A DNA stretch of 56,011 nucleotides from an uncultured Burkholderiales bacterium (GTDB lineage: Bacteria; Pseudomonadota; Gammaproteobacteria; Burkholderiales; Burkholderiaceae_C): assembly GCA_903844385.1 (NCBI GenBank), contig CAIMTJ010000128.1, positions 1 through 56,011 on the forward strand, read 5' to 3'. The notes below the pieces were generated by a model. The model was not told the origin of the DNA and made no database searches. It saw only the letters and a program-made list of their open reading frames with translations. This document shows positions 38,849-49,307 of the stretch, piece after piece (position 1 is the stretch's first letter; every line of letters begins with the position of its first letter). A program made the translations under genes and the position numbers.

Positions 38849-39043
38849 CATAGGTTGGGGGGCATTCAAAATCAGGGCACTTTCAAGAACAGGCCATCAA
38901 GCGTTGACGTCCTCGAAGGCCACGCCATGACCTCTGAAGGCCACCCGCGTGCCGCTCGCAGTCGTGGCGGCCTGCGAGCCAATCCTGATCAACGCCCGCG
39001 TGAGCAAAGGCTCTCAGCGCAACAGCGCTCACCGAGCACTGAC

Positions 39044-40087
39044 TCAGCGCTTAGAGACCTTGACCTCGGCGGAGCTCGATGTGGTGGACTTGAGTTCAGG
39101 AAAAGCGTCCACCATTTTGGCACCGTTCAACGGCTTGTTCACGCCTTGGTGACACGTGGCGCAGTAGACCTTGGCGACGTCGCCCGTTTCACCCAAACGC
39201 GTTTGCGGGAAGGTGCCCAGCAAAGGCTCCAAATACTGCAAATTCACATCGCGCACCATGCGTATGCCATACCACGCGGTTGCGCGCTGCGGTGGACTGG
39301 CTTGCCAGCTGGCAAACGAGCGTGTGTTGTGGCAATAGGTGCAGTTCACACCCAGCGACTCAGACATGTGGGTCATGAGCCCATAGGTCCACTCGGCTTG
39401 TTTGATGGAGTGACGGTTCTCGTTGGGCAGCGCGGTCGTTCCATTGACCCGAATGTCTTGAGTGCCCAACAAAAAAGGCGTGAAAGGATCATTGGGCAAG
39501 GAGCTCAGACCCACGCTGGCAGCAGGCTCATTTTGACCAGCACGGTCGCCCATGAAGTCCGCACCCATGGGGCTAGCGTCTTTTTTGAACCAGATTTGCT
39601 GAGGAATGTTGTTGCCGCGGTGACAGGTGTAGCACGTGACACCCGTGGTGGAGACGTGCTGAGACCAATCGCTGTTGATGTGCTGCGTCATTTGTATCAT
39701 GCGACGCGCCACCACCTTGGTGTACTTGGAGTCATCGGCAAAATTGACCGGGTTGTGACAATACACACATCCCTCATTGGGGGCCACCCAAGAGGTCATC
39801 GATACCATCAAGCGGGTGAACTGGGCCGTGGACAATCCGCCCAACACTTGCACATTCTTGTACGTTTGGCTCGCGCGCGGGCCATCGGTGGGGGCCGCTG
39901 GGAGGGCAAACGGTGGCGTATTGTTGGCGGCTTGTTCCTCCAAGATGCGGGGGTTTTTGACCTGCACCATGCCGGTTCCACGGTAGCCGTGCTGCTCACT
40001 GAGCATGGGAGGGCGTTCACAACCGGCGAGCAAAACCACAGCACCCAAGAGCGCCCAAGATAAAAAACGAGACGTCACGGCCTTCAT
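39044..40087 (-). CDS. pufC: Reaction-centre tetrahaem cytochrome c subunit
   Basis: A 347-residue lipoprotein cytochrome that re-reduces the special pair from the periplasm. Signal peptide with lipobox LLAGC (Cys23 lipidated) and four haem motifs: CVYCH (107-111), CYTCH (152-156), CTYCH (249-253) and CATCH (309-313). Met residues for axial ligands are nearby. The ATG at 40087 overlaps the pufM stop by 4 bases; the longer frame overlaps pufM. It ends the puf genes, in the order pufB-orf74-pufA-L-M-C. Confidence 0.96.
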
Positions 40088-41061
40088 GGTTTGCCTCCAA
40101 TCAAAGTTGCGGGATCCACCACCGCAGGGAAAACGTTGGGATAAGGAGGAGCCACACCGTGCTTGACCGCCCACAAATACCAGTTGTCGACGACGGTACC
40201 GGTGAGCAAGATGCCGATGCCACCTGCCAAGGGACACAGCACTGCAAACCACCAAGCCCAGCGGTGAATGGACTCCATCGTGGCGTTAAAGCCCATGGTC
40301 CAGCGCCAAAATAGCGCTGCCCGCTCGGAGGCCGTACCACGGTCAACGATTTGTTCAATCTCTCGTTCACCGCCGTAGCGACTCACCGCCAAAATGGTCG
40401 CACCGTGCATGGCAAAAAGGAGCACCGAGCCGTAGAGGAACACGATCGACAAGGCATGAAAGGGGTTGTAAAACAAGTTGCCGTAGCGCAAAGAAAATGC
40501 GGCAGTCCAGTCCAGATGGGGGAAGATTCCAAAGGGGACGGCCTCACACCAGCATCCCATCAAAAGGGGCCTGAAAAATCCAAGCACCAGATAAAGCCAA
40601 ATCGCACCCACAAAGGCCCAGGGCACATGGGTGCCCATGCCCAGTTGCCTGGCACGCCGGTAGGTTCTGACCCACCAGAGCAAAATGGAGACGGTCAAGA
40701 ATAAACCAGCAATCATCCACCAGCCGCCTTGGTTCAGGGGTGGCATGTGCAAGCCATACTGCGGCGCAGGCGGCTCCAAGGCCAGCCAAAAGAGTTGTCG
40801 AATGAACTGAATCGGGTCGTAATTCACCGAAGCGAGCATGTTCATGCCGATGATGTTGAAGGCGATCATGCCAAAAAACAATGAAGCCACCCCCATGCTG
40901 CCCAAGTAAACTGGGCCAATTTGTGCATTGCCCAAACGACCGGCCAAATGCAGCATGAATGGTTTACCCACACGAGGGTCGTTCCCTCGCCCAAGCGCGA
41001 TGCCATCGCTGGTCGGGCCAGTGACTTGGACCGCCGTGAATAAATTTTGATATTGGGGCAT
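40084..41061 (-). CDS. pufM: Photosynthetic reaction centre M subunit
   Basis: A 325-residue five-helix M subunit. Key residues sit at the same numbers as in Rhodobacter: His182 (accessory pigment), His202 (special pair), Tyr210, His219 and His266 plus Glu234 (non-haem iron). The C-terminus ([20 protein letters not shown]) is the extended form found in species with a bound cytochrome. It overlaps pufC by 4 bases. Confidence 0.98.
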
Positions 41062-41146
41062 GCTGACCTTCCTTTAATGTTTGTCAATGAGTGCGACGCT
41101 CATTTTTACTTTGTGAACCGTGCCTGGCGTGCTCGATGAGAGCGCA

Positions 41147-41971
41147 TCAATGCCAAATGGGCATGTTCAACCACCAACCCCACCACTCAGGCCATCCACG
41201 CGACCAAAATGGTCCACTGATGACAATGCAAACGGCTGAAAAGAACACAGCGGCCAATGCCAAAAAGAGTCCCAAGCGGTGTATACCGAGCGTTCCAACG
41301 GAGTAGCCGACGATGTCTCTAAAAAACGTGTCCTCATGCTCAGGCGACTTGACGCTGCCCCCCGGTATTGGATTGGTGGCCGACAACACCAAGGCACCGT
41401 GCAAGGCCAACGCAAACGTGGTGGTGAAGAAAAAAGTCACCGCAATCATGTGCGCAGGGTTGTAGTGAAAATGCAAGTACTGGTAGCCCACATTGGAGAC
41501 CCAGTCCAGGTGACTATAAATGCCATAGGGAAACGCATGTCCCCAAGCGCCCATCAAGACTGGACGCACGACTTCTAGCGTGAAATACGCAAAAACAGCG
41601 AAACTGTAGGCAACAGGCACATGCAGTCCCATGCCCAGTTTGCGGCAAATCTCGACTTCTCTGAGCGCCCAAGAGATGAAGGCCCCCAAAGCACACACCG
41701 TGATCCACTGCCACAATCCACCTTGGAGCATCGGCGCGAGCTTGAGGCCATAGGACAAATCAGGTGGTGCAATGCTGATTTGCCACAGATTCCAGGTCGG
41801 CCCCATGGCTGCACCGTACAAAATGAGGGTGGTACCAAGTACTGAGAAAAATAATGTCGTGACACCAAAAAAGCCCATGTAAAACGGGCCCACCCAGAAG
41901 TCAAACAAGTCACCCCCAATCAGGGTGCCTCCTCGGATTCGGTATTTTTTCTCAAAACTCAACATGGCCAT
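41147..41971 (-). CDS. pufL: Photosynthetic reaction centre L subunit
   Basis: A 274-residue five-helix L subunit. With the initiator Met counted, His154, His169, His174, His191 and His231 correspond to the usual His153, 168, 173 (special pair), 190 and 230 (iron). Glu105 and Tyr163 match Glu104 and Tyr162. N-terminus [20 protein letters not shown] is standard. 85 bases separate it from pufM, and a stable hairpin precedes it. Confidence 0.98.
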
Positions 41972-42033
41972 TTTGAAGCCCTCCTATGCCGAAATTGGCA
42001 AAAACAAAGCACTGATCAATCTATTTGTCAAAA

Positions 42034-42079
42034 GCAAGCACCCATCACTCGGGGGACAAGGCCGAGGTTGGGTGCTTGC
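42034..42079 (-). other. Intercistronic hairpin between pufA and pufL
   Basis: A perfect 11-bp stem (GCAAGCACCCA with TGGGTGCTTGC) with a 24-base loop lies between the pufA stop and pufL. In Rhodobacter, stem-loops at this place protect the pufBA message and give the excess of LH1 over reaction-centre transcript. The same role is inferred. Confidence 0.7.
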
Positions 42080-42095
42080 ACCCTACCCTGAGCAA

Positions 42096-42299
42096 TCAGG
42101 ACTTCGCTTCAACGCCACGGGTTGGCATGGGCGCGTTTTGCGCCGTTGCCCCAGCAGGCTTCACACGAGGACCATCAAACCAGTTGTACTTATTGGTGCT
42201 GAGCAAGACGAGATGAATCATCGCAGCAAGACCAAACAGAAAAATTCCCTGAACCACCATGGCTCTTAAGGGATCAAACAGTCGCCAAATTCTCCACAT
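42096..42299 (-). CDS. pufA: LH1 light-harvesting alpha polypeptide
   Basis: A 67-residue core antenna alpha chain. [20 protein letters not shown] is the family N-terminus; His29 in [10 protein letters not shown] is the bacteriochlorophyll ligand; NKYNWFDG follows. A Pro/Ala-rich C-terminal extension of about 24 residues is present. Ribosome-binding site AGGAGA sits in the 10-base gap after orf74, so translation of the two may be linked. Confidence 0.96.
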
Positions 42300-42309
42300 G
42301 GCTATTCTC

Positions 42310-42534
42310 CTAATTGATATGGGACATAAAGGTGTAAACCGCCGTCTTGATGCCAACGATAATATTGTGTGAATCCTCAGCACCGCTGAGCCAGGTCCGC
42401 CAATGGATACCGATCAGTTGACCGAGTAAGGCCACAGCCAACAAAACCACAAAGCAAGGCACAAACATCACCATCTCACCCCAACGCTCTTTAGGCGCTG
42501 GCGAAGGATGACTTTCGTTGAACATGGTTGACAT
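42310..42534 (-). CDS. Single-span membrane protein between pufB and pufA (orf74), unrecognised
   Basis: A 74-residue ORF with its own strong ribosome-binding site (TGAGGAG, 7 bases before ATG 42534). A polar N-terminus with [10 protein letters not shown] precedes one hydrophobic helix (about residues 20-43, [20 protein letters not shown]), then [10 protein letters not shown] and an amphipathic C-terminal helix ([18 protein letters not shown]). It lacks the Ala/Gly-x-x-x-His pigment motif of alpha or beta chains. Sitting 34 bases after pufB and 10 before pufA, it is co-expressed with LH1. The overall plan resembles Rhodobacter PufX (short polar start, one span, amphipathic end), but there is no clear sequence match; a core-complex accessory subunit is inferred. 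MFNES at 42525 is an alternative start. Confidence 0.75.
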
Positions 42535-42568
42535 GGTTAAACTCCTCAGAAAAAAAACTACCGTTGAA

Positions 42569-42712
42569 TCAGAACCAGGGCCGCCATGCCCAGACCAACA
42601 TGTGAGCAATTGCAGCAACCGCTACAAACCCCACTAATCCTTGGACCCAGTAATGGTGGAACTCCTGAGCTTCTTCGTCGGTCAGGCCGGAAATTGACGT
42701 CCGATTAGACAT
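42569..42712 (-). CDS. pufB: LH1 light-harvesting beta polypeptide
   Basis: A 47-residue core antenna beta chain: [17 protein letters not shown], one helix, His37 in AIAHML as bacteriochlorophyll ligand, and the WAWRPWF end. The ribosome-binding site GAGGAG lies inside the last codons of orf63, whose stop (TAA) overlaps the first codons of pufB. It is too short for callers with a 60-residue cutoff. Confidence 0.96.
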
Positions 42713-42896
42713 ATGAATGCTCCTCGTTGATGAAAGTGGTCACATGGACCATTGGCGCTGAAGCCCGCGCACCCTGGGCAGCCGCAACCCGTCGTTGCTG
42801 CATCTCTTGGGGGGACACTTCAACGCACGCCTGAGGGGCAGAGGCGATGAAGGGTGTTCCCGTGTTCATGGGGTTAGGGTTGGTGGAGACGATCAT
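42705..42896 (-). CDS. 63-residue soluble ORF between bchZ and pufB (orf63)
   Basis: The ORF starts in an ATGA overlap with the bchZ stop and ends (HSYV, TAA) inside the start of pufB, so it is coupled on both sides. It reads [20 protein letters not shown] and continues with [20 protein letters not shown]; no membrane helix or known domain is visible. In Rhodobacter pufQ sits between bchZ and pufB, but PufQ has a membrane helix and this does not resemble it. It may act mainly as a translational bridge carrying the pufB ribosome-binding site, or encode a short regulator. Confidence 0.6.
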
Positions 42897-44401
42897 GCCG
42901 TCACACCTTTGATGTCGTGAGCATGGGCGTCTTGCTCTGCAGGCTCCCAACCAAATGACTTGGCCACGGCCCTCAGCCGCTGGGCGCTCACCTCGCTCTC
43001 ACCGGCCTCAATGGCAGCGCGGTCTGTGGTGTCACGCAAAGTTTTGGCCGCTGAGATCTGCACCAAGACTGGTTGCGCGCCAACGCATGCGCGCATCAAG
43101 CTTTGAGCCTCTTCGCTCCAAGGCAATTGGCTTGGTGCCACCACCCCTCGCGATAGCGTGGACTCAGCGCGGTCCATCTCTGTGCCCAAGGGCAAAATAT
43201 TGAACAGCGCATCAAACAGCGCATTGCAAACCTCTTGCACCAAGTAAGAAGCTCCGCTGTAGCCCATGAACGGCGTGCCGATGTGTCTGCGAATGATGGC
43301 GCCTGGGAAAGAGGCTGGAATAAAGCACGGCCGCATGGGCCCACGCGCGCCAATCTCACTCAAGTACATGCGCTCGTTGTAGCTGCCAAACATGATGAGC
43401 GGGGTCTCCTTGTAGACCTTTTGACGAACCTCTTCGTTGTTGGTCTTTTGACCGGGCATGCGAGAGATGGCAAAGCGGCAGGGTAGCCCCATCTCGACTT
43501 CCAAAAAGTTCTTCAAGCCACGTGTGTACGTCTCATTGGCCACCACAGCGAAACTTGCGGTGGCAAAAAAGTCTTGGGTCACCGAACGCCACAAATCCCA
43601 TACGGGCTTTAAGGTGGTGTGCTTTTCGCGCTCAATGAAGGGCTCGGGGTCAAGCCCCGTGAGCTCGCCGAGTTTGCGCAAGAACAAGGTGGTGCTGTGC
43701 AATCCAATGGGGGCTTGCAAATAGGGACGCTCCAGTGTTTCACACAGCAATCGACCAAACTCTCGGTACATGCAGATATTGACATCCGATTCGACCAGTC
43801 GCGACACGTCAGACAAATGCGAGCCCAATGGAAACACCATGTTGATCTCGGCACCAATGCCTTGCACGAGACGCCGGATTTCAGCCACATCACTGGCCGA
43901 GTTGAAGGTGCCGTAGCATGGACCAATGATATTCACCCGGGGTCGCTCACCGTCTTTGCGAACGCGCTTGGGGACCTTTTTAAGGCCGTACTCACTCCAG
44001 AGCCAAGACATGGCCCGGTTGGCACACTGCCACTGGTCTTCGTCGATGGTTCTGGGCAAAAACCGCATCAAATTGGTGCCCTCAGGGGTCACACCGCCAC
44101 CGATCATCTCGGCAATGGAGCCCGTCACCACCACCGAGGGCAAATCCGGGTCCAAACTGGCGTGGGCGCGTTTCATGGCGCCTTCGGTGCCTTCACGACC
44201 GAGTTGCTCCTCGGCCAGACCGGTCACCACAATGGGTAACTCGTGGGGGGGCAAGGCATCGGTGTAATGCAGCACCGAGGTCACTGGCAAATTCTCACAG
44301 CCCACCGGACCATCAATGACGACTTGCAGTCCCTTGATGGCGGTGAACACATAAACAGCGCCCCAGTAGCCGCCGGCTCGGTCGTGGTCAATGACAAACA
44401 T
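42893..44401 (-). CDS. bchZ: Chlorophyllide a reductase subunit Z
   Basis: A 502-residue nitrogenase-like subunit; with BchY it reduces ring B of chlorophyllide a. N-terminal [20 protein letters not shown] and [20 protein letters not shown] carry the Cys ligand; [17 protein letters not shown] lies mid-protein. Its start overlaps the bchY stop by one base (TGATG) and its end overlaps orf63. Confidence 0.96.
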
Positions 44402-46005
44402 CAGCCCATCTCCTGCGCTTTGCGCTGTTTGTTTTTTTTCTCCATCTGGCGGCGGTTTTCAGCCCTGAACTCAGGATGCTCTTTGGGTTTGTCCGACCAC
44501 ACACCCGAAGAATCACCCTGGCCCACCGAGCCAAAGAATTCTTTCATTTGATGGAAACGGTGTTGGTTGCTCATGGCGGCATTGACCACTTCAATCAAGG
44601 AGCCCGCTCCCGCAATGCCCATCAAGGGGCGAGCAGAAATCAAATTGGTGAAGTAAAGCGATGGGATACAGGCCTCTTTGGCGTACTGCACCACGGGTGT
44701 CGTGCCAACAGCCAAATTCGGTTCAAACTCTTTCACGGCGTCCAAGTCTTGCTCAAGGGACGCTCTGAACTGAACCTTCACGCCCTTACTTTTGAGCCAC
44801 TCAGCATCGGTGGCGTTCCACGGTGTTGCCGGACAGGCCGAGCCCACGTAACGCAAGTCTGCACCGCACTCCACCAAGAGTCGGCCCACAATCAATTCAG
44901 ACCCCTCATAACCACTGAGGGTGATGCGCCCATGGATGGGCTTGGAGGCCAACACCCCACGGATGGCGCTCAGTGATTTGTTTCTGGCGGCATCAATTTG
45001 GTTTTGTGACACACCCACACTTTGACCAATCTGCTGCAGCCAGTCATGGGTGCCCTCAACACCCACTGGGGCCGAGCCCACGACGGGGCGTGAAGCGGCT
45101 TCGAACTCGCGAACACAGGCGGTATAAAACGGATGAATCGCCGCCACCACGCTGCCGTCCAAGGCGGCATAGAGCTCTCTCCATTCGCGAGTGGGCACAC
45201 TCGCGCCCACGGCCAAGCCCATCGGTTCAATCAATTGCGCAATCCCCATGGGGTCGGCAGGGAACATCTCACCGAGCAAGGTCACCGTGGGCAATGCTTG
45301 TCGCCCACGCTTGGGTGCGGGTACGGGTCCACTCATGACCTCATGCCTTGCATACTTGAGCATGGCGCCTGCGAGCACGTCTTTGGCCTCGGCATGGGTG
45401 GGCACACCAAAGCCTGGCACATCGATGCCAATGATGCGCACGCCGTTGATTTCTTTGGGCAGCAGCTGCAGCGGCACACCGCTGGCGGTGGGCACGCACA
45501 AGTTGATGATCACGATGGCATCGTATTGATCAGGGTTGGCCTGCAAGTGAACGGCTTCACGGATGTCTTCAAAGAGCTTGCCCGTCACCAAGGTCTCCGA
45601 GTTGAAGGGCACGTAGCCGACGCTGCGGCGAGCGCCATAAAAATGCGAGGTGAAGGTGAGTCCGTAGACACAGCACGCCGAGCCCGACAAGATGGTGGCT
45701 GTGCGACTCATCCTGAGCCCCACGCGCAAAGAACCAAACGCGGGGCACATGCTCTGGGGTTGATCGTGGGGGCCTTTGGGGTAATCCAAGGCGTAGCGCT
45801 TAAGAATTTCGCTCTTACCCGCCGCTTGTGCAGCCGATATCAACGATTCCTGCGGGGCGTGACACGCCCCAGCTTCAGGTACGGCGTCTTGCACGGCTTT
45901 GATCGGAATGGTCTTGATGTCCATGGCGGCTTGGAGGTCTTGTAGGCTGAGGGTGGGATGGCGTGAAGGCAGCGTTAAAGTGGCGTTGGCGTGTTCGCGT
46001 GTCAA
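44401..46005 (-). CDS. bchY: Chlorophyllide a reductase subunit Y
   Basis: A 534-residue nitrogenase-like subunit and partner of BchZ. Cys-containing segments typical of Bch[41 protein letters not shown] and [19 protein letters not shown]. The listed start is a TTG overlapping the bchX stop (TTGA); an ATG at 45924 ([10 protein letters not shown]) would give 507 residues, nearer the usual length. Neither has a strong ribosome-binding site. Confidence 0.94.
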
Positions 46006-47027
46006 GCCTCGTCGTAGATCACTTCAAGGGTTGGCTTGGTGAGCACACTCGCTCCGCGCATGTCCACCTCGGTGGCCGGCTGCAGCACCACATTGCGACC
46101 CACCGAGTCGGCGCTAAAGAGCGACAAGAGTTCGTCTTGGCTCAGGGGCTTGGGGCGCTGGGGGGGTGCATCAGCGACGTTTTGCGCCAGTTCGGCAAAC
46201 AAGGGGCCCCATTGACTCTCGGGGCGACCGATGATCTCGTAGCTCGCACTTTTTCTGCGGATGTCTTCATTGGCGGGAATGGCCGCCAGCACTGGAATGC
46301 CCACAAGCTCGGCAAATTGGGCGGCTTCCCCTGTGCCGTCATCTTTGTTGATGACCACGCCAGCCACGCCAACGTTGCCACCGAGTTTTCTGAAGTACTC
46401 CACGGCTGAGCACACATTGTTGGCGACATAAAGAGACTGCAAATCATTGGAGGCGACAACGATCACCTTTTGGCACATGTCACGGGCAATGGGCAGACCA
46501 AAACCGCCACAGACCACGTCGCCCAAGAAGTCAAGCAGCACATAGTCAAAGCCCCATTCATGAAAGCCCAACTTCTCCAAGGTCTCAAAACCGTGGATGA
46601 TGCCGCGTCCACCGCAGCCGCGACCAACCTCTGGGCCGCCGAGTTCCATGGCAAACACACCATCGCGTTTGAAGCAGACGTCGCCAATGCTCACCGCCTC
46701 ACCGGCGAGTTTCTTTTTGGAAGACGTCTCAATGATGGTCGGACAGGCTTTTCCACCAAAGAGCAAGGACGTGGTGTCGCTTTTGGGGTCACAACCAATG
46801 AGCAAGACTTTTTTACCTTGCTGCGCCATCATGTAACTCAAGTTGGCCAAGGTAAAGCTCTTGCCAATGCCCCCTTTGCCATAAATGGCAATGATTTGGG
46901 TCTCTTTGGTCACCTCGCCCGAGTGCACCTGGTCGGGTTCGTGATGGGCTTCATCGCGCAGGCGTTGGGTGAACTGGATGGTCTGCTCTAGGACTTTGGA
47001 TTCGCTTGCATTCGGTGTGGTTGTCAT
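46002..47027 (-). CDS. bchX: Chlorophyllide a reductase iron-sulphur ATPase subunit X
   Basis: A 341-residue NifH-like ATPase and electron donor to BchYZ. P-loop [10 protein letters not shown] (residues 50-59), GCDPKSDTTSLLFGGKACPT, Cys ligands in GGPEVGRGCGGRGI and [15 protein letters not shown]. The ATG shares one base with the bchC stop. Longer than BchL, as is normal for BchX. Confidence 0.96.
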   Translation of the reverse strand: MTTTPNASESKVLEQTIQFTQRLRDEAHHEPDQVHSGEVTKETQIIAIYGKGGIGKSFTLANLSYMMAQQGKKVLLIGCDPKSDTTSLLFGGKACPTIIETSSKKKLAGEAVSIGDVCFKRDGVFAMELGGPEVGRGCGGRGIIHGFETLEKLGFHEWGFDYVLLDFLGDVVCGGFGLPIARDMCQKVIVVASNDLQSLYVANNVCSAVEYFRKLGGNVGVAGVVINKDDGTGEAAQFAELVGIPVLAAIPANEDIRRKSASYEIIGRPESQWGPLFAELAQNVADAPPQRPKPLSQDELLSLFSADSVGRNVVLQPATEVDMRGASVLTKPTLEVIYDEA

Positions 47028-47974
47028 CAGTTACTCCAGTCAAGAATCATTTTGAGGCAATGGGGATCGCAAAATGCGGTTTCATAAGCAGTCTGCGCCT
47101 GGGCCGGCGCGCTGTCGTGGGTGATCAATCCGTCAAAGGACAAACGACCCGTGTTCATGAGCTCACAGACCGCATCCAAGTCGCATTTCTTCCACTGCGC
47201 AGACACCCGAATCTGGGGCTCTTTCATGAAAGCCGATGCAAACGTAAAGGACAGATCTTGGGTGTAAAAGCCCGCCAACACCACCTCCCCGCCAGGCGCC
47301 AAGTGGCCAATGAGTTGGTTGAGCAAGGACGAGTCCCCGCTCACGTCATAAATGGCTTTGTAGTCTTTTTTGGTGTCTTCTCGCGGATCCATCACGATGT
47401 AGCCCTGCGCACCAGTGGCGCGGGCAGGATTGATCTCCCACACGGTCGGGGGCTGCATGCCGGCCGCCACCGTCATGCGGGCCAACAAACGGCCCATGAT
47501 GCCGTGGCCCACGATCAAATCGGGGGGTTGCGCAGGATTGATGGCACCTCCCTTGGAGACGCTGTGGTAGACGGTCGCCGCCAGCGCCAAAAGGGTGGCA
47601 TTTTTTGCGTGTTCATCGGCCACCCGCACCACGCGCTTGGCAGGCACCACCAGTTGTGAGCCCGAGCCCCCAAACAGGTTGTGAACATTTTTAAAGGAAT
47701 AAGCCCCCGGCACAAAGACAAATTCACCCTCTTTGAAAGCGTGTTGTGAATGGTTTTTGACCACCCGTCCCACTGTCTCGTAACCTGGCACCAATGGGTA
47801 GCCCATGCCTGGGAATGGGGGCATGCTGCCGTCCCACAGCAGTCGCTCAGTTCCGGTGCTGATGCCACTGTAAGCAACCTCAATTTTGATGTCCCCATCC
47901 ACCATGTCAGCGATGTCCAAGGGACTCAGCTTGATGTTTTTGGGGCCTTCAAAAAGTACGGCATGTGCATTCAT
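47027..47974 (-). CDS. bchC: 3-hydroxyethyl bacteriochlorophyllide a dehydrogenase
   Basis: A 315-residue medium-chain dehydrogenase that oxidises the 3-hydroxyethyl group to acetyl. N-terminus MNAHAVLFEGPKNIKLSPLD; GISTGTERLLWDGSMPPFPG and VPGYETVGRVV are conserved; GHGIMGRLLARMTVAAG is the NAD-binding Rossmann turn. The ATG at 47974 is chosen; the 7-codon longer frame runs into a PpsR box. The possible promoter puts the transcript start at or next to this ATG. First gene of bchCXYZ. Confidence 0.95.
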   Translation of the reverse strand: MNAHAVLFEGPKNIKLSPLDIADMVDGDIKIEVAYSGISTGTERLLWDGSMPPFPGMGYPLVPGYETVGRVVKNHSQHAFKEGEFVFVPGAYSFKNVHNLFGGSGSQLVVPAKRVVRVADEHAKNATLLALAATVYHSVSKGGAINPAQPPDLIVGHGIMGRLLARMTVAAGMQPPTVWEINPARATGAQGYIVMDPREDTKKDYKAIYDVSGDSSLLNQLIGHLAPGGEVVLAGFYTQDLSFTFASAFMKEPQIRVSAQWKKCDLDAVCELMNTGRLSFDGLITHDSAPAQAQTAYETAFCDPHCLKMILDWSN

Positions 47975-47976
47975 AT

Positions 47977-48020
47977 TGTCATTCTTTTTGTACAATTTAA
48001 TGCGTCAATGTTAATTGACA
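47977..48020 (-). promoter_or_regulatory. bchC promoter with two tandem PpsR boxes
   Basis: Box A (47977-47994) is a perfect TGT-N12-ACA; box B (48003-48020) has one mismatch (CGT arm on the plus strand). They are 8 bp apart. On the minus strand TTGACG (48008-48003), a 16-bp spacer and AAGAAT (47986-47981) form a promoter like that of puc. It lies between crtF and bchC, giving the bchCXYZ-puf genes their own control. Confidence 0.65.
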
Positions 48021-48047
48021 CTATCAAACTGAGTATTAGGGGAAACA

Positions 48048-49307
48048 CTAGGTTTTGTGGGCAATCAAAATTCGAGCGTGGGTGGGCATGGGGTTGGAGA
48101 GGAGTTCAACGCGCGAGAAACCGGCATGCTGCATCATGGACGAGAGCTTTTGCGGCGTTCTCAAACGCCCCTCGCCCATGGCCATCAAGTAAAAATGGAA
48201 ATACGCATCCTGACGGTCTCCCCGCGCGTCGGCCATGGGCTCGGCCAACAGCAGCCGCCCTCCTGAGGGGAGACCTGCGTGGATCTTGCCCAGCAGCGCT
48301 TGCACATCGGCGTCGCAGTGATCGTGGGCCACTCGAACGAGGGTGACCAAGTCGGCGCCGCTTGGAATCGGATCGGTTTTAAAACTGCCCGGTATAAAAC
48401 GCATGCGCGAGACGTAATGGGTGTTCACATGGCTGCGCTCGGTGAGCTTGACCACCTCCGGCAAGTCCATCAAGAGGAGTTCCAAGCCAGTGTGGTGTTG
48501 GGCCAGGGTACTGGCAAAACGCCCCAACCCACAACCAATGTCCAAGACGCATTGGTGGTGCATGAAGTCATAGTTGTCGATGATTTCTTGAATCACAAAG
48601 TTTTGTGACACGGACATCAACTGTGAGTAACGCTCGCTCGATTGGGCAGCGTCAAGCTCGTGGTGCGGGCCGGTGGCAAGCACTGGGTTGGGCGTGATCC
48701 GTTTTTTCGCCTGTTCGCCAAAGGTATAGGGCCAATAGTGGTGCATTTGCGCGTTATCAACCCCCTCTGGACTTTTGAGCATCTGGGGTGTATCGGCCAT
48801 GTCCGCATACAGCAAGGCGTTGTGCTCGACCATGGCTTCAATGCCGGGGTAGCTCACCACCAAGGCCCCCAGAGGACCAATGCCGTAACGAGCCCCAGAG
48901 CGTTGATCCATCAGCTTCAATGACACCGCTGACCACACCAATCGATCCAATCGATCGGGCGGCAAACCGACATGGCTGGCCAATTCTGCCAAGCTGCATG
49001 GGCTTTGCTGGACACGGGCCAACACGCCCAGACGCAAACAATTGAGCAGCACTTGAAAGTGCACAAACCCCGCCATCAAATCAAAGACTTCACGGGTACG
49101 CTTTTGTGTGTACCAGCGGGTGAAAAACGTGCTCACACTCAGGCGGTAAAGCTGAGGCGAAACCATCCAGCGGTCGATGCGGTTACGAAACCGCTCTCGC
49201 CAGTCAAGCTTGACCTCCACTGGGGTGCTTGGATTTGACGAGGCTTGGCTCAAACCCATGGCTGGCGAGATGGATGGGTAACGCTTGAGCTCGATGTTGA
49301 GCGTCAT
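48048..49307 (-). CDS. crtF: Hydroxyneurosporene O-methyltransferase
   Basis: A 419-residue SAM-dependent methyltransferase that methylates the 1-hydroxy group in the spheroidene pathway. N-terminal winged-helix dimerisation region (LAELASHVGLPPDRLDRLVW), SAM motif VLDIGCGLGRFAS, then LVTLVRVAHDHCD and GGRLLLAEPMADAR. The ATG overlaps the crtE stop (ATGA). bchC follows after a 73-base gap with PpsR boxes. Confidence 0.94.
   Translation of the reverse strand: MTLNIELKRYPSISPAMGLSQASSNPSTPVEVKLDWRERFRNRIDRWMVSPQLYRLSVSTFFTRWYTQKRTREVFDLMAGFVHFQVLLNCLRLGVLARVQQSPCSLAELASHVGLPPDRLDRLVWSAVSLKLMDQRSGARYGIGPLGALVVSYPGIEAMVEHNALLYADMADTPQMLKSPEGVDNAQMHHYWPYTFGEQAKKRITPNPVLATGPHHELDAAQSSERYSQLMSVSQNFVIQEIIDNYDFMHHQCVLDIGCGLGRFASTLAQHHTGLELLLMDLPEVVKLTERSHVNTHYVSRMRFIPGSFKTDPIPSGADLVTLVRVAHDHCDADVQALLGKIHAGLPSGGRLLLAEPMADARGDRQDAYFHFYLMAMGEGRLRTPQKLSSMMQHAGFSRVELLSNPMPTHARILIAHKT

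Follow-up and report, generated by a model that had tools for sequence, protein, structure and literature searches.

The window is the whole stretch of DNA that we analysed, 56,011 nucleotides from an uncultured Burkholderiales bacterium. Its minus strand carries a photosynthesis gene cluster in which an open reading frame of 74 codons, referred to here as orf74, stands between pufB and pufA, the genes for the beta and alpha polypeptides of the LH1 antenna. In the direction of reading, the features at this locus are:

42893..47995, minus strand: bchC-bchX-bchY-bchZ, lying 5' of the puf genes and named by eye from their sequence and order
42569..42712, minus strand: pufB, LH1-beta, 47 residues, a short, tailless form ending in RPWF, matched by NCBIfam NF040862 and Pfam PF00556
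42542..42547, minus strand: Shine-Dalgarno sequence of orf74, GAGGAG
42310..42534, minus strand: orf74, a 74-residue single-span protein and putative LH1-beta paralogue, with no bacteriochlorophyll (BChl)-ligand His (Gln39 stands in its place) and with a conserved tail, residues 45-73
42307..42311, minus strand: Shine-Dalgarno sequence of pufA, AGGAG, overlapping the orf74 stop codon
42096..42299, minus strand: pufA, LH1-alpha, 67 residues, matched by Pfam PF00556
41147..41971, minus strand: pufL, reaction centre L
40084..41061, minus strand: pufM, reaction centre M
39044..40087, minus strand: pufC, reaction-centre cytochrome, named by eye from its CxxCH motifs and position, with the start chosen at MKAVTSRF...

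The frame runs from an ATG at 42534 to a stop codon at 42312-42310, beginning 34 nt after the pufB stop and ending 10 nt before the pufA ATG. A first-pass annotation, made from the sequence alone, had described it as an extra membrane-protein gene with a strong ribosome-binding site of its own, and both points hold. The sequence 5' of the ATG is TTTCTGAGGAGTTTAACC, in which GAGGAG lies seven bases before the start; by eye, this site and its spacing are equal in quality to those of pufB and pufA. The arrangement recurs in relatives, where 141 of 146 operons have a loose four-letter ribosome-site motif ahead of the orf and the distance from the orf stop to the pufA start is 9-26 nt (median 11, 146 operons). 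The same annotation correctly described a single-span protein lacking a pigment-binding His: the only hydrophobic segment, placed by eye at residues 21-43, has a mean Kyte-Doolittle value of 2.55 and contains no His. The C-terminal helix, which it called amphipathic, is only moderately so, with a moment of 0.37 that 57 of 2000 shuffles of the helix's own letters reached. A search of positions 39000-48500 against Rfam returned nothing at the gathering score.

An ORF1 upstream of pufB is named in the available portion of PMC12817894. We found 112 frames ending near the pufB start, and among the 30 listed both the peptides and the frames vary between genomes, so we see no conserved protein at this position. 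From 42713 to 42900 in the window, and at the same place in relatives, the DNA seems alike while the reading frames change (translations compared by eye), pointing to a regulatory element and not to an ORF1 protein.

orf74 is a real gene. A protein search matched 45 of 101 genomes of relatives; one of the matches (G089) is a tailed PufB, so the orf is present in 44, of which 42 were read at the locus and two (G011 and G021) are counted from the match. Reaction-centre genes (PF00124) occur in 46 of the 101 relatives, and all 45 matches fall among these. The orf is found in 44 of these 46 genomes, the exceptions being G089 and a genome whose contig starts inside pufL (G045), and in none of the 55 that lack reaction-centre genes, an occurrence far beyond chance. 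The order pufB-orf-pufA was seen in 30 of 30 loci inspected. Homologues are encoded in 309 stretches; among the best 80 of these are Rubrivivax gelatinosus DSM 1709 and IM 151, R. benzoatilyticus and Piscinibacter, together with metagenome bins labelled Polynucleobacter, Limnohabitans and Oxalobacteraceae.

Codon substitutions, which the first-pass annotation had named as a check alongside conservation in relatives' puf operons, indicate purifying selection. Within the genus, the median dN/dS of the orf is 0.19 (176 of 351 pairs usable), compared with 0.10 for pufB and 0.07 for pufA. Constraint is less strict across all 46 loci tested, which reach beyond the genus, with a median of 0.32 and a maximum of 0.85 (431 of 1035 pairs usable), compared with 0.13 for both pufB and pufA. 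The codon test omits three loci (L020, L021 and L023). Separately, one locus (L128) offered no ATG within range. The dN/dS values bear on an alternative in which the frame is a relic or a neutral ORF that merely spaces pufB from pufA or couples their translation. The position of its stop codon, within the pufA ribosome site, is what such a frame might show, but a within-genus dN/dS of 0.19 and a tail that is near-invariant over 139 distinct sequences make this very improbable.

A relative's orf protein (L033) had no match among plasmids at E 0.01, and PHROGs held no family for orf74. A puf operon of betaproteobacterial type is also carried by two metagenome bins whose titles, Fonsibacter lacus and Bordetella parapertussis (L168 and L178), are probably wrong unless the bins are mixed.

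Profile comparisons indicate that the orf74 family is homologous to LH1-beta. We compared a profile of 74 homologues, from whose alignment 7 of 81 diverse sequences had been left out, with 177,635 PDB sequences and obtained 42 matches at E values of up to 10. The top 40 are light-harvesting chains, led by 8z81_B at E 3.6e-16; most are labelled beta and some only antenna or light-harvesting protein, and the window's PufB likewise hits every one of them. The remaining two are unrelated (E 3.2 and 4.6). With a smaller profile of 15 rows, all 14 matches found at the same cut-off were light-harvesting chains. In hhalign comparisons, run pairwise and without database calibration, the orf family scored 99.5% (70 columns, E 3e-23) with four tailed PufB sequences from Burkholderiales. 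With seven from Alphaproteobacteria, also tailed, the score was 98.7%, and with 47 short PufB sequences from the same operons it was 96.6%. The controls were Rhodobacter-type PufQ, at 12.6%, and PufA, at 1.7%; on the latter score we reject orf74 as a relative of LH1-alpha. The orf aligns with LH1-beta through the helix without a gap, its residue 39 standing opposite the BChl-ligand His of beta.

In Pfam and NCBIfam, the window's orf74 protein has no light-harvesting match. Among the 74 homologues, the Pfam LHC model PF00556 matches three with an E value no higher than 0.1 (lowest 0.00046), DMT_YdcZ matches three (best 1.2e-5), and the unrelated DUF2567 matches eight (best 6.5e-5) as well as a tailed PufB. 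As a candidate member of the LH1-beta/LHC family, orf74 shows sequence homology and lies beside pufA in the puf operon, and it lacks both a PF00556 match and a BChl-ligand His in the membrane helix. AlphaFold models, both of low confidence, show a long helix followed by a C-terminal one in the two kinds of protein: residues 14-48 and 56-73 in orf74 (mean pLDDT 64.2), and 16-47 and 57-77 in a tailed PufB (mean pLDDT 70.3). No betaproteobacterial RC-LH1 structure was identified among the PDB matches, whose table gives no organisms; the best match of the window's PufB is 9m8m_B, at 58 bits.

None of 139 distinct homologues has a His at positions 24-43, and residue 39 is Gln in 99, Ser in 14, Thr in 12 and another residue in 14, never His. 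The Ala four positions before residue 39 is kept in 136 of the 139 and the Trp nine positions after it in 128. In LH1, residues at such positions flank BChl; Gln could accordingly hold a pigment here, though it need not. The most conserved part of the protein is the tail, WRxWLPGAE...GVKAAVYTFMS, which is periplasmic in our reading; the most invariant residues, lying within it and immediately ahead of it, are W45, R46, W48, P50, G51, A52, E53, G61, V62, V66, Y67, T68, F69, M70 and S71. When the tails are compared alone, the orf scores 98.0% with tailed Burkholderiales PufB and only 25.0% with alphaproteobacterial PufB. One locus (L181) has an orf with an intermediate tail, ending ...GVRKAANSVIPLMFM. 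In four others (L183, L188, L192 and L197) the orf tail has VYTVMSQ, VYTVISQ or VYSVISH in place of VYTFMSH; the PufB of these loci is unusual (...YxLWAxGAFxAHSLVW...), and in L192 and L197 so is PufA.

Our only evenly drawn set covers 399 genomes from across the order, and reaction-centre genes are present in 48 of them. Thirty-eight of the 48 combine a short PufB with the orf. Five (G089, G226, G240, G314 and G344) have a tailed PufB and no orf, with PufB tails of 27-28 residues such as LPGSEGYTSMYEGIKAAVYNVVPYAFMG. Three genomes of one genus (G129, G249 and G280) have a short PufB and no orf, and in the last two (G207 and G361) the region is cut by contig ends. Within this sample, the tail is found either on PufB or on the orf, never on both. 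The first-pass annotation had taken adjacency of pufB and pufA as the norm; in this order it is not, with the orf in 38 of the 46 genomes whose pufB-pufA region is intact. One further genome (G335), outside the 48, has pufB-orf-pufA at a contig end and no reaction-centre genes, and a profile match in G161 was spurious.

The further loci that we read were mostly chosen for holding the orf and, for tailed alphaproteobacterial PufB, by a match to the orf profile (15 of the 176 were incomplete). In 147 operons with the orf, L120 and L137 included, PufB has a tail of 1-2 residues, and none of 11 operons with a tailed PufB has the orf; in those 11, the PufB stop lies 11-16 nt from the pufA start. 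In a set of 398 genomes drawn from the phylum, the matches inspected outside the order (L060-L066 and L068) are PufB or tailed PufB, and the weaker ones, with E above about 1e-4 and mostly uninspected, look like chance matches. In the genus with neither orf nor tail, just 73 nt separate pufB from pufA (L199-L201, in G129, G249 and G280), a natural experiment on whether phototrophs can do without the orf. The existence of this genus implies that the function of the orf is not needed everywhere.

We infer that an ancestral tailed pufB was duplicated and that the copies underwent reciprocal loss. One copy, the present pufB, would have retained the His but not the tail, and the other, orf74, the tail but not the His. 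In a tree of beta-like proteins, the orf and the tailed Burkholderiales PufB sequences are grouped together by a branch whose support is only 40/68; on the best tree the orf group requires two changes, and a single clade is not rejected (p 0.31). These family trees have too few alignment columns to fix the order of duplication. In a PufL tree, three Burkholderiales with tailed PufB (L182, L184 and L179) lie near the root with weak support, a position compatible with the PufB tail being the older state. A fourth (L180) falls among the orf carriers together with two alphaproteobacteria, and the outgroup in this tree does not form one side of a branch.

A different ancestry would make orf74 the betaproteobacterial PufQ, a regulator of porphyrin flux, moved to the other side of pufB. 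The two share a length and an operon, and 61 relatives yielded no PufQ match over the curated cut-off, with only sub-cut-off matches (E up to 1) in 43 of them. Some encouragement might also be drawn from Methylobacterium-like genomes, in which the ORF at the PufQ position scores 93.6% with the orf family and in one case matches PF05398 weakly (E 0.021). But PF05398 matches just one of 74 orf homologues (E 0.015) and does not match the window protein, and the low score of Rhodobacter-type PufQ with the orf family comes from nine Rhodobacter-like genomes. The Methylobacterium-like ORFs themselves score 4.9% with Rhodobacter-type PufQ and 93-97% with tailed PufB (97.0% with the tailed PufB of Burkholderiales), and one of them matches the NCBIfam pufB model (E 0.0012); their tails score only 1.3% with the orf tails. 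We consider descent from PufQ improbable and have rejected it in favor of descent from LH1-beta. The Methylobacterium-like loci (L060 and L062-L066) are of interest in their own right: the ORF upstream of pufB has a related helix and a tail ending ...VFGEAKAMAVSAIPFAFMG, and it may represent a second His-less beta lineage.

The first-pass annotation had likened orf74 to PufX, which opens the LH1 ring in Rhodobacter, and had suggested a profile comparison with PufX, protein-W and LH1-gamma. That likeness has not survived. In neither set of PDB matches up to E 10 (14 and 42) is any chain labelled as PufX, protein-W, protein-U or gamma, and orf74 lies between pufB and pufA instead of after pufM. 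The latter is the position given for pufX in the available portion of PMC9640540, where PufX is related to the N-terminus of PufC.

These observations lead us to propose, with a probability of about 0.62, that orf74 encodes a pigment-less paralogue of LH1-beta, a 'beta-prime', whose tail acts in LH1 assembly or ring architecture. A role in the core complex is likely, and the product probably helps to build or shape the LH1 ring. The protein would enter the membrane as beta does, with its N-terminus in the cytoplasm and its tail in the periplasm, and could take a beta-like place beside PufA without offering a normal pigment site. From there, the conserved tail could act on the growing ring or on the reaction centre. 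The protein might be a partner in assembly that is present only transiently, or else a ring subunit, substoichiometric in amount, marking an end of the ring or a gap in it; we weigh these two about equally.

As a structural subunit comparable to PufX or protein-W, one or a few copies of beta-prime would replace an alpha-beta unit, interrupt the pigment ring and leave a gap for quinone. A beta-like helix without the ligand His, a gene placed among the LH1 genes and a conserved tail would all suit this part, and the ring gaps that PufX, protein-W, protein-Y and other proteins maintain appear to have arisen by convergent evolution (PMC10214105, excerpt). Against it, orf74 has no homology with PufX or W, and the five tailed-PufB operons of the order sample have no such subunit, which implies that they can manage without a gap-maker, unless the PufB tail itself does the work. 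We regard this form of the proposal as a real possibility, somewhat short of an even chance.

As a transient assembly factor, beta-prime would use its beta-like face to hold PufA or the nascent ring, deliver the signal carried by its tail, and then be released or degraded. The gene order, B-orf-A, with the orf stop overlapping the pufA Shine-Dalgarno sequence, is what one might expect of such a factor, and elsewhere PufB itself carries a similar tail. A precedent for losing a tail comes from Rhodopseudomonas palustris, in which 13 C-terminal residues of LH1-beta were unresolved and mass spectrometry pointed to cleavage (PMC7806223, excerpt). This suggests that a finished complex can lack its LH1-beta tails, although R. 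palustris is a single species with a different tail. We regard this form as possible, though less likely than not.

The frame itself is already in print. The first-pass annotation had presented it as a possible new subunit, and as an ORF it is not new. According to the available portion of PMC12817894, which cites Nagashima 1994, the puf operon of Rubrivivax gelatinosus contains two ORFs of unknown function, one of which, ORF2, lies upstream of pufA, the same operon position as orf74. The homologues that we found in R. gelatinosus DSM 1709 and IM 151 are 69% identical to our search query. That paper aligns ORF2 with PufA1 and PufA2, reports 10.1-14.5% with PufA2 and rejects ORF2 as the source of the Gemmatimonas pufA2; in the portion available, ORF2 is not linked to LH1-beta. 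Similarly, Roseateles depolymerans has an ORF74 (RD2015_RS05155) that locus tags place between pufB and pufA (PMC10037100, excerpt) and that we liken to orf74 from these tags and the length in its name. It is co-transcribed with pufB and pufA (PMC10037100, excerpt, citing Suyama 2002). In a sigma-factor mutant, 2.34% of its transcript was left, and it was one of the three most changed loci, together with pufB and pufA; the available portion of the paper proposes no function or family for it. We found no text in the open-licence literature that links the ORF to LH1-beta.

On this reading, an ORF that PMC12817894 traces to 1994 becomes a testable matter of what the tail of LH1-beta does and whether a second protein can supply it. 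An antenna polypeptide that gave up its pigment and retained its scaffold would, moreover, make a simple case in evolution. Betaproteobacteria such as Limnohabitans and Rubrivivax are widespread freshwater phototrophs. More tentatively, and below even odds, we extend the proposal to most phototrophic Burkholderiales, whose core complex would contain, or be built with, a tailed beta-prime that is pigment-less or Gln-ligated (AxxxQ). The LH1 of this large freshwater group would in that case be more than a plain ring of alpha-beta units.

Among known systems, PufX, protein-W, protein-U and LH1-gamma are small accessory membrane proteins of the core complex and resemble orf74 in plan only; for protein-W, three helices are predicted (PMC7806223, excerpt). 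If the orf74 product is present in the complex, this LH1 would have an extra subunit derived from the antenna, with an origin unlike that of PufX. The LH1-containing complex of Halorhodospira halochloris includes a single-copy chain of 105 residues with an LH domain (PDB 8k5o chain 4), which might be a precedent for a specialized beta-like subunit. A close comparison is with LH1-beta (in the PDB, 8z81_B, 9m8m_B and 7xxf_B), especially the tailed forms from other Burkholderiales and from Alphaproteobacteria; it has its helix register and the WRxW motif in common with orf74 and, in the Burkholderiales forms, a similar tail. In contrast to LH1-beta, orf74 has lost the BChl-ligand His and the N-terminal EFH motif, and unlike the tailed forms it is a separate gene adjoining a short PufB.
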